A stretch of DNA of 41,151 nucleotides from Anaerolineales bacterium. GTDB lineage: Bacteria; Chloroflexota; Anaerolineae; Anaerolineales; Villigracilaceae. Each line of letters opens with the position of its first letter. Positions within the stretch are counted from its first letter, which is position 1. The notes beneath the pieces are model-generated. The model saw only the letters and a program-made list of their open reading frames with translations. It ran no database searches and was not told where the DNA came from. A program made the translations under genes and the position numbers. Positions 1 to 4,102 of the stretch are shown here, piece after piece. The stretch covers positions 1-41,151 of the forward strand of contig JACZJB010000229.1 of assembly GCA_014860805.1 (NCBI GenBank), given 5' to 3'.

Positions 1-1300
1 ACAATGATCAACGGCTTCGGCTCCGCCTTGCCGTGCGTGCGGAACTCATTCGTCTTCTTCTCCCACGCCGCGCGGATCTTTCTCGTCAGCAAATTCGACA
101 CCAGCAAATAATCCAGGTCACTCTCATGCTCGGCGAACGACAGCACCACATGCTTGCCCGCCTCCAACGACTGGATGATCTGCGCTATCGAGTCCGCTGC
201 AGGGTTGTCCACGATATAGGGTTGGCTGAACAGCCGTCGCAGTTTGTCATGAAGCGCTTCCGCCGCCATCACATTCACACCGTTCTCCAGCGCCCACTTC
301 GCCACGCTCCCCTCCGCAGGCACCTCCTTCGTCTTGCCGCGCTCATCTTCGATCACAACCGTCTCACGGCTCATCCCACGAAACACCGCAAACCACTTAT
401 CCCGAAACGTCGTGTACAACGCATTCAAGATCGTCGGGGTCGTCTCGCGCAGATTCAGCTCACGTGAAAGCGTTTCAATATCACTTGTGGAAATATCTCC
501 CGTTGAGATTTCCAAATTAAAGTCAACTTGATTGCCTCTGATGGTGCTTCCTGCTCCAAGCCAACGCATCGGACTCCGCCCTTGAACAGGGTCTTCAATC
601 CCTTCACGGCTTTTTTCGTGTCTGAAGCCACATCGTCAAACCCATACTCGTTGTGCATGTCCAGCACCAGCACCGCCGCCTGATTGTGCTTCATCAACCC
701 CGCCAGCACCAAGCGCGTCAGGAACGACTTACCCGTCCCCGTCGCACCGAACACTCCCGATGACCGCTGCACGAACTTATCCAAGTCAATGCACACGGGA
801 TGATTCTGCTCACGTGTGTGCCCGATGACAAAATTACTTTCCTTGTTCGGGTCACCGAAGATCTCAGCAATATCGCCTTCATTCGCCAGCGACACCACCG
901 CATGATGCGGAGGAATATTCTTGACGGGCAAAATACGCGGTGCATCTTTCAAGCCCGCATCGATTTTCCCCTGCCAATCCTTATACTCGGGCGTGCCAAG
1001 TTCGGGTCCCACCTCAAGCATCAGGTTCGGCAACACCTCAAGGTTCGCATACAAGGTCTGTCCATGCAGCGCCTTGGCGATATGCGCAGGGAAGCGCACC
1101 TCCGTCTGCTCGTCCGCAAACCGCGGGTCCGTCGCACCGAGATTGATATCCGTCACGATGCCGTAGTAATTCCAATGTCCGCTCTGGATGACGACAAACG
1201 CCCCCTCCTGCATCTCCTGCGGAGAGACCGTAAGCCGCACGCGGAAATTCTCCTTCAATCCGCCGCCGACGAGATAACCAATTTGAGTTCGCTGTTCCAT
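1..1300 (-). pseudogene. herA: HerA-type DNA-translocating ATPase, frameshifted and cut by the window edge
   Basis: HerA/FtsK-superfamily ATPase, in known systems a hexameric DNA pump that works with the NurA nuclease. The start is the ATG at 1300, preceded by AGAGGT. The N-terminus (IGYLVGGGL) looks like a HAS-barrel; Walker A is GATGTGKS and Walker B is VLVLDMHNEYG. From about 557 the reading frame shifts by one. The first frame runs on to a stop at 455 with unconvincing sequence, while the next frame continues a good HerA-like protein to base 1 (for example ELNLRETTPTILN near 440 and KHVVLSFAEHESDLDYLL near 130). One missing G in the run read as TTGGAG on the minus strand (554-560) would explain it. 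It could be a real mutation or a sequencing/assembly error. The C-terminal part, with the remaining catalytic motifs, lies outside the window. The gene is last in the series nurA, HAS gene, GxxExxY gene, herA. Confidence 0.8.
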
Positions 1301-1477
1301 AAATACCTCTTTTTTAACACGAAGGACACAATGTACACAAAAGTTTAAGGCTCTTTCCTTCGAGCCCTTAGTGCTTTTTTGTTTAATATTCTTAAACACG
1401 AAGGGCTCAAAGGTCACGAAGGTTTTAAGGCTCTTAACCTTGGAGTCCTTCGTGCCCTTTGTGTTTAATTGCCTTTA
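1301..1477. repeat. Nest of degenerate direct and inverted repeats 3' of the GxxExxY gene
   Basis: Units related to CCTTCGTGTCCTTTGTGTTT occur at about 1343-1387 and 1438-1477 in direct orientation, and at 1314-1330 and 1392-1422 inverted. 1362-1373 and 1397-1408 form a 12-bp stem with one mismatch, with GTTTAA/TTAAAC extending inside the loop. The unit at 1438-1477 ends exactly on the TTA that is the stop codon of the GxxExxY gene. Apart from the ribosome-binding site of herA, no other feature is seen here. Confidence 0.75.
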
Positions 1478-1900
1478 CATCACGAAACGTTTAATGCCAT
1501 CTTTCAAATGCTTCACGTTGAAATTCATCAAATACCCGAGCCGTTTTCCGCTCAACCGCAGATACGTCATGATTTGCGCCTCATACACAGGATTCATTTT
1601 TTCTACCACCTTAAGCTCCACAATGACGCAATCTTCAACTAACAAATCCAACCGAAAACCAGCGTCCAAATTTTGCCCATCGTACACAATCGGCACAGGC
1701 AGCTGATTCGCTACCGTCAAACCGCTTTTTCGAATCTCATAGGTCAATGTGGTTTCATACACCGACTCTAACAAACCAGGACCCAGAGCAGTATGCACCT
1801 TGAACGCCGCATCCAACACCGCCTTGCCAACTTTTTCAATATCAGAGGTGATTGTCTGATTCACCATCTTTGGAACATTCCGTGAACTTAAGTTTTCCAT
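1475..1900 (-). CDS. GxxExxY family protein
   Basis: 141 residues, the usual length for the GxxExxY family. The defining motif is visible as GPGLLESVYE around residues 40-50. The family is assigned to the PD-(D/E)XK nuclease-like fold, and the acidic stretch RLDLLVEDCVIVELKVVE around residues 83-100 fits its D...ExK core. The cellular role of the family is not established. The ATG at 1900 follows AGGTAGAGGTGT; the ATG at the MVNQTI position (1867) is an alternative start. The gene lies between the HAS-barrel gene and herA on the same strand, enclosed by 40-bp direct repeats (1438-1477 and 2060-2099), so it looks like an insertion into a nurA/HAS/herA operon. It has no recognisable transposase, and the mechanism of insertion is unknown. 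Confidence 0.9.
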   Translation of the reverse strand: MENLSSRNVPKMVNQTITSDIEKVGKAVLDAAFKVHTALGPGLLESVYETTLTYEIRKSGLTVANQLPVPIVYDGQNLDAGFRLDLLVEDCVIVELKVVEKMNPVYEAQIMTYLRLSGKRLGYLMNFNVKHLKDGIKRFVM

Positions 1901-1939
1901 ACACCTCTACCTTCCTGCACCAAAGTCTAAACTCGAAGT

Positions 1940-2099
1940 AAATATCAACAGCACTTAATAACCTTAGTGTCCTTTGCGCCCTTCGAATTCAATAAAACCA
2001 ATCGACAAAATCATCACGAAAGCCAATTAGAAAAAACAACTTCGCCATCACTTAATCAACCTTTGAGTCCTTCGTGTCCTTTGTGTTTAATCGCTCTTA
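1940..2099. repeat. Second cluster of CTTCGTG/CTTTGTG repeats, 5' of the GxxExxY gene
   Basis: The unit at 2060-2099 is identical at 35 of 40 positions to 1438-1477 by hand alignment. A shorter related unit lies at about 1961-1987. As on the other side, the 40-bp unit ends exactly at the TTA stop codon of the neighbouring minus-strand gene (the HAS-barrel gene, 2097-2099). The 1901-2096 gap holds nothing else recognisable. Confidence 0.7.
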
Positions 2100-2690
2100 A
2101 GAAATATCCGCCAATGCACCCAATACAGACATCAGGGTCGGGTAATCGTCTCTCAACAAAGTAATCACTTCCTGCGTCGCGGACTCAATCCACCGCGCTC
2201 CATCTGCTCCCCTTGCTTTCCCCGCCTGCAAAATATGCGCTGCGACCACTTCCCCCACGGGCACATCCTTGCCATTTAAGATATGACGGAAATACCCGAA
2301 CTTCTCGGTAAATCGCACGATATCCTTATCCTCGCACAAATAGATCACATCCAAACTCAGCGGCGGGCGCGGCGGCAGCAGATGATGAACTTTGCCATCC
2401 TGCTCATACCCCACCGCCAACACGGACATTTCCACGGGCACAATGCGGCGCTCGCGGTTGTCCTTCATCACTTCCTCGCTGACTCCATCCGCCGTCACCA
2501 ACTGACGCACCAGCCCATCATCGTCAATGTGAATATCGTGGATCAAGCCATAGACCTGATACCCATCCGCCAACGGCGCGCGGACCAATGCCCCAAACGA
2601 AGGCACACTCAACTGATTCACACGGCAGCCCGCTGTAAACCCTGAAATCCCTGCGCTAAGTAAACGTCCGATCTCGATTGGTTGTGTCAT
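2097..2690 (-). CDS. Stand-alone HAS-barrel-like protein of a HerA/NurA cassette
   Basis: 197 residues with no ATPase motifs. The N-terminus (IEIGRLLSAGISGFTAGCRV) and the following VPSFGALVRAPL...YQVYGLIHDI parallel the start of the adjacent HerA protein (TQIGYLVGGGLKENFRVRL...GAFVVIQSG...YYGIVTDI). I therefore read it as a second, separate HAS-barrel domain; this is inference from pattern, not from a search. The rest (about 100-197) is not recognised. The ATG at 2690 follows AGGAG (2705-2701) at a spacing of 10. An out-of-frame ATG at 2698 would make only a three-codon peptide. It sits directly downstream of nurA on the same strand, so it is probably a HerA-interacting or HerA-loading partner. 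Confidence 0.7.
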   Translation of the reverse strand: MTQPIEIGRLLSAGISGFTAGCRVNQLSVPSFGALVRAPLADGYQVYGLIHDIHIDDDGLVRQLVTADGVSEEVMKDNRERRIVPVEMSVLAVGYEQDGKVHHLLPPRPPLSLDVIYLCEDKDIVRFTEKFGYFRHILNGKDVPVGEVVAAHILQAGKARGADGARWIESATQEVITLLRDDYPTLMSVLGALADIS

Positions 2691-2812: not shown

Positions 2813-4006
2813 TTATCTTCTGGTTCTACCCTTCAAATCCTTTGCGGACTGTTTATTCGAACCCTCGTCCACATCTTCACTGTTTCTTCTTAATTCCAAC
2901 GACAGCATCTGCTCGATCTGCTGCTTCTCTTCATTCTTCACCACCGCCGTTTCATGCGCACGATGAAGGAGATATGGATACGGTTTGCTGCCCATCATGG
3001 AGCATTGCTCGACCAAGACCGCATGGAGCAAGTCCAGTTGCTTTTTATCATCCACCACCCAACGCGGAATTTCAACACGCACGGGCCAGGGATGCCCTTC
3101 TGTGCCGACGTTCAAATAAAAGAAGTGCAATTCCAAAACGCCTTTGTAACTCTTCTCGGAACTGGATTGAATTTTGAACACCGCCGAACGATGACCGGGC
3201 GGAAGCAATTGGAATAATTTATTGTTGTAGCCAAACAGCCAACGGTCTGTCACGTATTTCAGCGGCGGCGCGTTGCGCAGTTTTTCCATCTCATCGGGGA
3301 TGGTGATCTGAGTCAGTTCGAGCAATTTGACTACGAGACTGGAAGAGGGCTTATCGATATAGCCTGCTGAGATGATGCCGCGTCCCTGCAAGCGCGAGAG
3401 GACGGAGATGTATTTCTCTACCGTGTTGCGGTACTGATTGGCATTATCAATGTCTTTGGCGCGGAAGATTTCGAGCGTGCCGTCTGTAAATGAAACGACT
3501 GAACCTTTCATGCCTTTGCTCATCTTTTCGATGACGCTGCGTTCGGCGAGGTCACGGCGCAGGGCAACGCCGCCGTCGGTGGTGAGTCCGTTCTCTTCGA
3601 TGGCGTCGCCGAAGAATAATTCGCTTTCCACTTCCACGGCTGGGGTTTCGCCAGAGTTGGGTTTCATCGAGATCGCGCCGACATTGATGACACAAAACTG
3701 CACAGGGCTGTGCCTGTCCGCGATGGCTTGCGAACCGTCCGCGGCGATCAAGGTTGATTGAATAACAGAATCAGACAGCGGGTGTGAAGAAGCGAGCGCT
3801 TCACCCAACGGCACCGCGCAGCGGATGTTGGCATCTGCTGATTTGGCAGAATCCACTTTGGAGCGCAGGAAGTCCAGTTGAGAAGAATAGGTTTCGAGCA
3901 GGGTTTTTGCCAGTTCCTGCGCTTCCTCTTTCTTCTTTCGTCTTTCCTTTGCGCCCAAGCCAACCTGTTTGATCTGGGTGTAGATTTCCTGATAGTTAAT
4001 GGGCAT
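2813..4006 (-). CDS. nurA: NurA domain-containing nuclease
   Basis: 397 residues from the ATG at 4006, chosen because AGGG (4016-4013) lies six bases upstream. The ATG two codons earlier (4012) would have no spacing, and the longer open frame starts inside the presumed promoter. NurA is an RNase H-like, Mn-dependent 5'-3' nuclease that works with the HerA pump in DNA end resection in archaea and in some bacterial defence systems. Visible family features are the IAADGSQ motif near residues 90-96 (first catalytic Asp), SFTDGT around 178-183 and a C-terminal region with VDDKKQLDLLHAVLVEQC. The N-terminus is charged and probably helical (AKERRKKKEEAQE). First gene of the NurA-HAS-GxxExxY-HerA series. 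Confidence 0.85.
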   Translation of the reverse strand: MPINYQEIYTQIKQVGLGAKERRKKKEEAQELAKTLLETYSSQLDFLRSKVDSAKSADANIRCAVPLGEALASSHPLSDSVIQSTLIAADGSQAIADRHSPVQFCVINVGAISMKPNSGETPAVEVESELFFGDAIEENGLTTDGGVALRRDLAERSVIEKMSKGMKGSVVSFTDGTLEIFRAKDIDNANQYRNTVEKYISVLSRLQGRGIISAGYIDKPSSSLVVKLLELTQITIPDEMEKLRNAPPLKYVTDRWLFGYNNKLFQLLPPGHRSAVFKIQSSSEKSYKGVLELHFFYLNVGTEGHPWPVRVEIPRWVVDDKKQLDLLHAVLVEQCSMMGSKPYPYLLHRAHETAVVKNEEKQQIEQMLSLELRRNSEDVDEGSNKQSAKDLKGRTRR

Positions 4007-4073
4007 GATCATCCCTGTGCTTCGACTTCGCTGCTCTCCGCTCAGTGTGAATACAATAGAACATTTGTGCAAA

Positions 4074-4102
4074 ATTTTAGCCGTAAATGGACTAAAATAC
4101 AA
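4074..4102 (-). promoter_or_regulatory. Putative promoter of nurA
   Basis: On the minus strand TTGTAT (4102-4097) and TAAAAT (4079-4074) are separated by 17 bases, giving a transcript start near 4067 and a leader of about 60 bases before the nurA ATG. Prediction from consensus only. Confidence 0.4.

Follow-up and report, generated by a model that had tools for sequence, protein, structure and literature searches.

The window, the 41,151-nucleotide stretch of DNA analyzed here, is a whole contig (C63) of an Anaerolineales genome of 4.23 Mb (G000). It contains a small GxxExxY gene situated within a NurA-HAS-HerA operon and accompanied on both sides by similar 40-bp repeats. The original prediction was that the gene plus one repeat form an insertion unit without any transposase, and that relatives should possess the corresponding empty site. 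The main features of the locus are listed in Table 1.

Table 1. Features of the GxxExxY locus (window positions)
Feature	Position	Strand	Remarks
herA	455..1300	-	DUF87, PF01935; downstream of GxxExxY; frame interrupted in comparison with relatives
Palindrome A	1316..1385		immediately upstream of herA; outer limits by eye
Palindrome B	1392..1477		contains the stop codon of GxxExxY; outer limits by eye
GxxExxY gene	1475..1900	-	141 aa; TIGR04256, PF13366 PDDEXK_3; sole gene between the arms
Arm L2	1960..1989	+	units at 1963, 1972, 1981; second arm upstream of GxxExxY, more degenerate
Arm L1	2060..2099	+	units at 2061, 2070, 2079; terminates in the TTA stop of the HAS-like gene
HAS-like gene	2097..2690	-	upstream operon neighbour of GxxExxY
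nurA	2813..4102	-	PF09376

The repeats at 1438-1477 and 2060-2099 indeed match at 35 of 40 positions without gaps, whereas in 1000 dinucleotide shuffles of the two intergenic regions no pair of 40-mers agreed at more than 26 positions (mean of the best matches 21.5). Both were said to end on stop codons, and both do, at 1475-1477 (GxxExxY) and 2097-2099 (HAS-like gene); as also predicted, no transposase lies between them. Each 40-bp unit consists of three copies of the 7-base word CTTNGTG at 9-base steps. With units defined as 7-mers having at most one mismatch at such steps, further arms of two to three 7-mers, some of them reversed, are found at 1960-1989, 1397-1421, 1358-1373, and 1318-1342. 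The plus-strand units at 1439, 1448, and 1457 of the arm 1438-1477 are opposed by minus-strand units at 1397, 1406, and 1415, forming palindrome B, and the plus-strand units at 1358 and 1367 by minus-strand units at 1318, 1327, and 1336, forming palindrome A, both between GxxExxY and herA. Across the gene, the 19 nt at 1396-1414 are 95% complementary to 2059-2077. Since the arms oppose each other, the flanks are palindromic and not merely direct repeats, and the proposed unit of a gene plus one 40-bp direct repeat has to be redrawn as arm, gene, and inverted arm, or as a gene between whole palindromes.

The neighborhood has some features of its own. No Pfam or NCBIfam family matches the HAS-like protein at E 0.01, and the protein owes its name to the original prediction. 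A repeat of another kind, a perfect 18-nt inverted repeat (CCTCCCCCAAATACGACA / TGTCGTATTTGGGGGAGG), is located at 2724-2794 in the gap between the HAS-like gene and nurA. In herA, tblastn matches switch frame near residue 250, at about positions 545-560 of the window, which reflects either a pseudogene or an assembly error.

The GxxExxY protein, encoded by the only such gene found in the G000 genome, scores 144.8 bits against TIGR04256 (curated cut-off 35) and 137.7 bits against PF13366 (curated cut-off 22). In an alignment of 55 proteins, residues G40, G42, E45, Y48, D85, E95, K97, Q109, and N126 are invariant and Y113 is nearly so; the GxxExxY and D...ExK motifs are intact, and this is the catalytic set expected of a PD-(D/E)XK nuclease, and Q109xxxY113 is presumably the QxxxY motif of Cas4/RecB-type enzymes. 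The structure model has a mean pLDDT of 92.7. Among 993 solved chains, the sole one with Z of at least 8 is SSO0001 (4ic1; Z 9.6, rmsd 3.8, 99 aligned), a Cas4 protein. Restriction enzymes, Holliday-junction resolvases, and lambda-type exonucleases are at Z of about 7 or below, and such matches to the model may mean only a common fold; the absence of other folds from these lists proves nothing. Lambda exonuclease is among the top Foldseek matches, none of which reaches E 0.001, and the PDB contains no sequence relative of the window protein (best E 0.42). Open-licence papers bearing the name or accession of TIGR04256 give no function for it, and no association of GxxExxY with inverted repeats was found in the main texts of the open-licence literature.

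Bracketing by inverted repeats was then analyzed across loci by aligning the 250 bases upstream of a gene with the reverse complement of the 250 bases downstream, a gene being considered bracketed at a score of at least 16. The cross-phylum set was limited to the 80 best among 580 confirmed stretches. Its genomes belong to Chloroflexota, Bacteroidota, Planctomycetota, Acidobacteriota, Proteobacteria, Cyanobacteria, Verrucomicrobiota, Spirochaetota, and further groups, with one archaeal MAG; since its query favours the GPGLLES subgroup, it samples TIGR04256 unevenly. In this set 60 of 77 GxxExxY genes are bracketed and 17 are not, compared with 1 of 226 control ORFs (the longest ATG ORFs of at least 100 aa, some of which therefore have wrong starts). 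The predicted tie between such repeats and GxxExxY genes in general is thereby borne out. The family set, from the family of the window's genome, consisted of 100 loci with flanks of up to 5 kb, covering the first matches listed and chosen blind to repeats. Here 78 of 105 GxxExxY genes are bracketed versus 6 of the 469 remaining ORFs of these loci, or 80 of 105 versus 6 of 469 with the stop codon included. Many of the family loci are old sites that recur from species to species and across genera; when these are collapsed, 41 usable sites remain, of which 33 have a majority of bracketed genes. Genes with short flanks had been dropped (7 of 84 cross-phylum, 4 of 109 family). At least three loci are common to both sets (L199, L200, L273), and without these the cross-phylum result is 58/75 versus 1/216. 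One Hymenobacter copy (L228) shows a 52/52 match between its two ends.

The one bracketed cross-phylum control resembles a four-helix-bundle gene with its own repeat (L220:664-1012). Ordinary genes bracketed by iterated inverted repeats were also observed in the family set (L162:2782-3310, minus-strand coordinates; L163, L148, L139, L130); named from sequence, they are zinc-ribbon/OB-like, queA-like, and pyrB-like, and they belong to the approximately 1% of bracketed controls. Chance or low complexity as the source of the repeats was considered and ruled out by the shuffles, the control ORFs, and a reversed-pattern control described below.

The arms differ in sequence from gene to gene. The general unit is CRCN[A/G]A[G/T], present in about three copies per arm and spaced by 8, 9, or 10 bases in 146, 267, and 64 cases, respectively. 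The proposal that other GxxExxY genes are bracketed by the CTTCGTG/CTTTGTG unit thus holds for the bracketing and fails for the word, which is one of many (CACAGAG, CACGGAT, CGCCAAG, etc.). A first scan, in which the heptad pair of the window was present in just 3 of 30 GxxExxY loci, seemed negative because the arms of other genes bear other versions of the unit.

The unit version is consistent within a gene and follows the protein. Each end has two or more units of a single class in 123 of the 198 genes examined, and the two ends share their class in 117 of these (chance about 0.31). On a tree of 163 proteins the unit class changes 24 times, versus 74.8 times on average and never fewer than 65 in 200 label shuffles; this tree and the count of ends still include the loci shared by the two sets. 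Between nearest relatives at 60-70% identity the class agrees in 24 of 33 cases, against 34% by chance. Loci of the window clade contain AAG-class pairs in 18 of 29 cases and GAG-class pairs in none of the 29. For comparison, four-helix loci have AAG pairs in 0/30 and GAG pairs in 1/30, and neither pair occurs at 30 GIY-YIG loci. Three genomes have 12-14 matches each. Among the loci fetched from them, a gene and its closest paralog share 36-64% identity and in most cases differ in their units; 22 of the 30 loci from these genomes are bracketed, a doubly fetched locus being counted once.

The HAS-HerA slot was compared in 30 HAS loci from relatives, with categories assigned by eye. GxxExxY follows HAS in seven of them (L009, L010, L015, L016, L018, L019, L037). 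In four others (L012, L013, L024, L025) the slot holds a single heptad palindrome and no gene, which is the gene-less site that had been predicted, with one repeat between HAS and herA; in a further four, a short gap contains no such repeat. Two loci carry a GIY-YIG gene between a different repeat and one that repeat alone, one locus has a third type of repeat, two have a four-helix-bundle gene, and nine contain other genes or are incomplete. The GxxExxY gene of a related genome, G158, is 93-98% identical to that of G000 with an interrupted frame; by eye, it has one palindrome versus two in G000 and one arm upstream of the gene versus two. The variety of slots and this difference indicate gain and loss of repeat units at this site. 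In one relative (G018, L010), a methyltransferase-like gene, named from sequence, lies between two heptad palindromes beside GxxExxY and is possibly cargo.

Of the 30 best-matching loci for the window protein, counting its own, 23 also contain HAS or HerA and span several genera, and GxxExxY is an old resident of the NurA-HAS-HerA operon; the gene-less sites may therefore be losses rather than sites that were never filled. The other seven loci comprise three further contexts, in two genomes each, and one unclear case (L369). With neighbor names read from the sequences, these contexts are between a transporter permease and an epimerase (L346, L348) and between a radical-SAM protein and a transporter or Era-like GTPase (L350, L356); the third is beside the gene of a 169-aa protein (L361, L367), and in L367 the opposite neighbor probably encodes the DNA polymerase III delta subunit. 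Members of the window clade, as assigned by score, are thus found at four kinds of operon site.

The repeats are not confined to GxxExxY genes. In G000, seven sites match the core with at most three mismatches, two of them in the window itself; L003, L005, and L006 hold inverted pairs, the first two between ORFs, and since GxxExxY is single-copy in this genome, these three sites lack the gene. In the whole family, the AAG-class pair CTTNGTGNCCTTNGTG occurs in 137 of 150 genomes (0-158 per genome; 0-1 per strand for the reversed-pattern control), and the GAG-class pair CACNGAGNNCACNGAG in 120 of 150 (0-192 per genome; control 0-2 per strand), counts that include the few pairs flanking genes. 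G000 itself has nine CTTNGTGNCCTTNGTG pairs and no CACNGAGNNCACNGAG pairs. For G098, compact palindromes with opposed pairs no more than about 50 bases apart were counted by eye at 16 of the first 20 sites listed; the position of dispersed pairs relative to genes is covered for a few of them.

TIGR04256 is present in 130 of the 150 family genomes, and the 20 genomes without it have a median of 2 AAG and 0.5 GAG pairs. GAG pairs are more numerous in genomes with a sampled CAC-GAG gene (median 56 versus 6; 32 and 36 genomes, p=1e-4, all genome-level p values and correlations given here ignoring shared descent), and AAG pairs do not differ in the same comparison (p=0.52). By sampled AAG gene labels, AAG pairs number 24.5 versus 22.5, which is not significant (p=0.30). 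By presence of the window clade, found in 47 of 150 genomes, they number 19 versus 15 (p=0.009), this label having been picked after the sampled-label result, and GAG pairs do not differ (p=0.32). Two genomes are exceptions: G100 contains 91 AAG pairs and zero GxxExxY genes, and G098 contains 120 GAG pairs and one GxxExxY gene without detectable arms. Y1_Tnp genes are present in 146 of the 150 genomes; the partial correlation of GAG pairs is 0.31 with Y1_Tnp number versus 0.28 with GxxExxY number, and Y1_Tnp number correlates less with AAG pairs.

A separate case is a repeat of about 200 bp in G061 (L370-L378), a genome without a GxxExxY match. Its copies share approximately 80-92% identity; they have GAGTCCACTGCAAAAA as outer inverted repeats, GAG-class units further in, and, by eye, apparent 5-8 bp target duplications. 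Its interpretation as a recent burst of gene-less elements was dropped, as it is a longer MITE-like repeat with its own outer repeats, and for this reason it was left out of the evidence.

No consistent excess of target duplications was observed in 97 elements at any offset for k from 2 to 5, with arm ends that were taken from alignments and are maybe off by a few bases. Among the 30 loci from the three multi-copy genomes there are no near-identical gene copies at two sites, the 100% identical pairs being one locus fetched twice. As family sites are common across genera, transposition would be rare or ancient. The window protein matches 7 of 72,556 plasmid records and 0 of 50,697 phage records. 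Family GxxExxY genes are codirectional with both neighbors in 84 of 99 cases versus 243 of 399 controls, and across phyla in 49 of 72 versus 83 of 157; this excess indicates that they tend to ride host operons.

In the bracketing of the genes, the iteration of the units, the agreement of unit class between ends and with the protein tree, the dispersed pairs and palindromes, and the intact catalytic residues, the nuclease and the repeats behave as if they were one small self-spreading or self-maintaining system. The association of the two is a matter of observation, and from it we infer mobilisation. The best reading, which we hold to be moderately probable, is a REP/RAYT-like system with a PD-(D/E)XK nuclease replacing the Y1 transposase. 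The GxxExxY gene would then encode an active-looking nuclease placed in the loop of a palindrome or between palindromes, and the arms would be its putative cognate sites, to which it would bind. The nuclease may cut at the arms or at a cruciform, and repair or strand transfer that leaves no target duplication may spread the copies. The nuclease may spread the palindromes, may do no more than maintain them, or may itself be maintained by them. Gene-bearing copies appear to settle in host operons, mostly in the sense orientation, probably using the host promoter, and the gene-less scattered palindromes would be non-autonomous relatives. A bolder version, which we put forward tentatively and regard as doubtful, is a separate, phylum-crossing class of minimal mobile elements, in which a lone PD-(D/E)XK nuclease of about 120-140 aa would recognise arms of iterated 7-mers and spread both itself and palindromes lacking the gene, with four-helix-bundle (S23-type) and some GIY-YIG genes as further classes. 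Such elements would do without a transposase or recombinase, occupy operon gaps, leave no target duplication, and have several orthogonal arm specificities per genome.

Alternatively, the arms could be operator, processing, or nuclease sites of a vertically inherited host gene that is immobile now, for instance an accessory of the NurA-HerA repair/defence operon, the nuclease preserving the arms through cutting and gene conversion. The sharing of sites across genera, the predominance of the NurA-HAS-HerA context among window-clade loci, the codirectionality with neighbors, and the lack of observed recent duplicates and target duplications all fit this scenario, but the same clade also occupies three other operon contexts, unit pairs are dispersed in most of the family genomes, and the number of palindromes differs by eye between G000 and G158; we consider it rather unlikely. 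A somewhat smaller chance is given to the possibility that another enzyme, such as a Y1/RAYT or DDE transposase, moves the palindromes in trans and GxxExxY is captured cargo. In its favor are the orphan repeats in G100 and G098, the near-ubiquity of Y1_Tnp, whose number correlates with both AAG and GAG pairs, and the GAG units that are seen by eye in the MITE-like repeat of G061 with its longer outer inverted repeats and apparent target duplications. On the other hand, AAG or GAG pairs are found beside 0 of 30 Y1_Tnp loci, generic ORFs are practically never bracketed, and chance capture would produce neither the agreement of unit class at both ends nor its congruence with the GxxExxY tree.

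Two more mechanisms seem very unlikely. The arms flank the ORF and could share one transcript, in which they would pair around it and the RNA would be processed by the nuclease or RNase III; a precedent would be the Coxiella intervening sequence, which has a 28-bp terminal stem and tandem heptamers upstream of its S23p ORF (PMC4990558). However, a stem needs no iteration of 7-mers within each arm, and G-U-compatible changes among arm mismatches, 108 versus 156 in the family and 106 versus 98 across phyla, show no clear excess, which makes DNA the likelier level of pairing. Less probable still is that homologous recombination between the 40-bp direct repeats adds and removes the gene as a cassette. 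The identity of the two repeats in the window speaks for it, as do direct flank repeats in 26 of 77 cross-phylum genes versus 4 of 226 controls, but this remains a minority pattern beside the inverted arms of the same set.

Bracketing extends to two other families. Genes of the four-helix-bundle family TIGR02436 are bracketed in 17 of 30 cases versus 0 of 14 controls at a score of at least 16, and in 24 of 30 versus 1 of 14 at a score of at least 14; for GIY-YIG genes the counts are 10 of 32 versus 0 of 10 at a score of at least 16. Each family included two loci picked by hand because a repeat had been seen there (L030 and L033, four-helix; L011 and L027, GIY-YIG), without which the results are 15/28 versus 0/12 and 8/30 versus 0/8, respectively. 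The TIGR02436 genes (L309-L338, L030, L033, L220:664-1012) are flanked by inverted repeats of a distinct kind, likewise iterated (GTTAGCGATTAGC, CAGTTATCAGTTATC, and the like). The GIY-YIG gene in the HAS-HerA slot (L011, L027) is bracketed by the palindromic repeat TGTCGTTGCGAGG..., which in L014 stands alone, and other GIY-YIG genes (among L279-L308) are bracketed by GTGGTCTCGATACGC-type repeats.

These results link TIGR04256 to a definite DNA site that can be read from the flanks of the gene itself, and the orphan family thereby gains a direct question: does the protein bind and cut the adjacent arms? GxxExxY becomes a candidate for the enzyme acting on a class of palindromes scattered through environmental genomes. 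Further, as paralogs of a single genome differ in unit class, the family is suited for learning a sequence-recognition code.

Several known systems share some of these features. Insertion sequences and MITEs of the DDE type have terminal inverted repeats, an internal gene, and gene-less derivatives. GxxExxY units resemble them in the terminal inverted repeats, but the window unit has no transposase, and target duplication was not detected in the 97 elements. Enzymes of the Cas4, lambda-exonuclease, and RecB type are similar to the GxxExxY protein in the predicted fold and in Q109xxxY113. Cas4 proteins are distinguished by four Fe-S cysteines, whereas the window protein has one cysteine and no helicase domain.

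In the intervening sequence of Coxiella 23S rRNA, an S23p ORF lies between terminal inverted repeats with tandem heptamers upstream of the ORF (PMC4990558). The likeness to GxxExxY consists in the small ORF between terminal inverted repeats and in the heptamers, and the arrangement resembles the four-helix type of bracketing. It differs in that the intervening sequence resides in rRNA genes, is excised from RNA, and has a non-nuclease ORF, whereas the gene of the window belongs to a NurA-HAS-HerA operon.

The closest parallel is provided by REPtrons (REP or BIME repeats with the RAYT enzyme, TnpAREP) and their TIRtron variant, which are described as scattered short palindromes with a single enzyme gene flanked by them, the repeats coming in enzyme-specific versions without a strict correlation between repeats and enzyme, and REP ends supplying stop codons of neighboring genes (PMC3733652, PMC8266576). 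GxxExxY shares with REPtrons the dispersed palindromes, the inverted flanking copies, the enzyme-specific repeats, the repeats without a cognate enzyme, and the supplied stop codons. The enzyme differs, being a PD-(D/E)XK nuclease with matches to PF13366 and TIGR04256 only, and not a Y1/HUH transposase. The arms differ as well: they are iterated 7-mers, whereas REP is a GTAG-tagged hairpin, and in the 12 bases next to the outer end of an arm, GTAG is found in 12 of 280 cases (shuffled mean 19.3) and CGTC in 3 of 280 (shuffled mean 13.3). Having the architecture of a REPtron with neither the Y1 enzyme nor the GTAG tag, the GxxExxY system thus appears to work like a REPtron and is not one.
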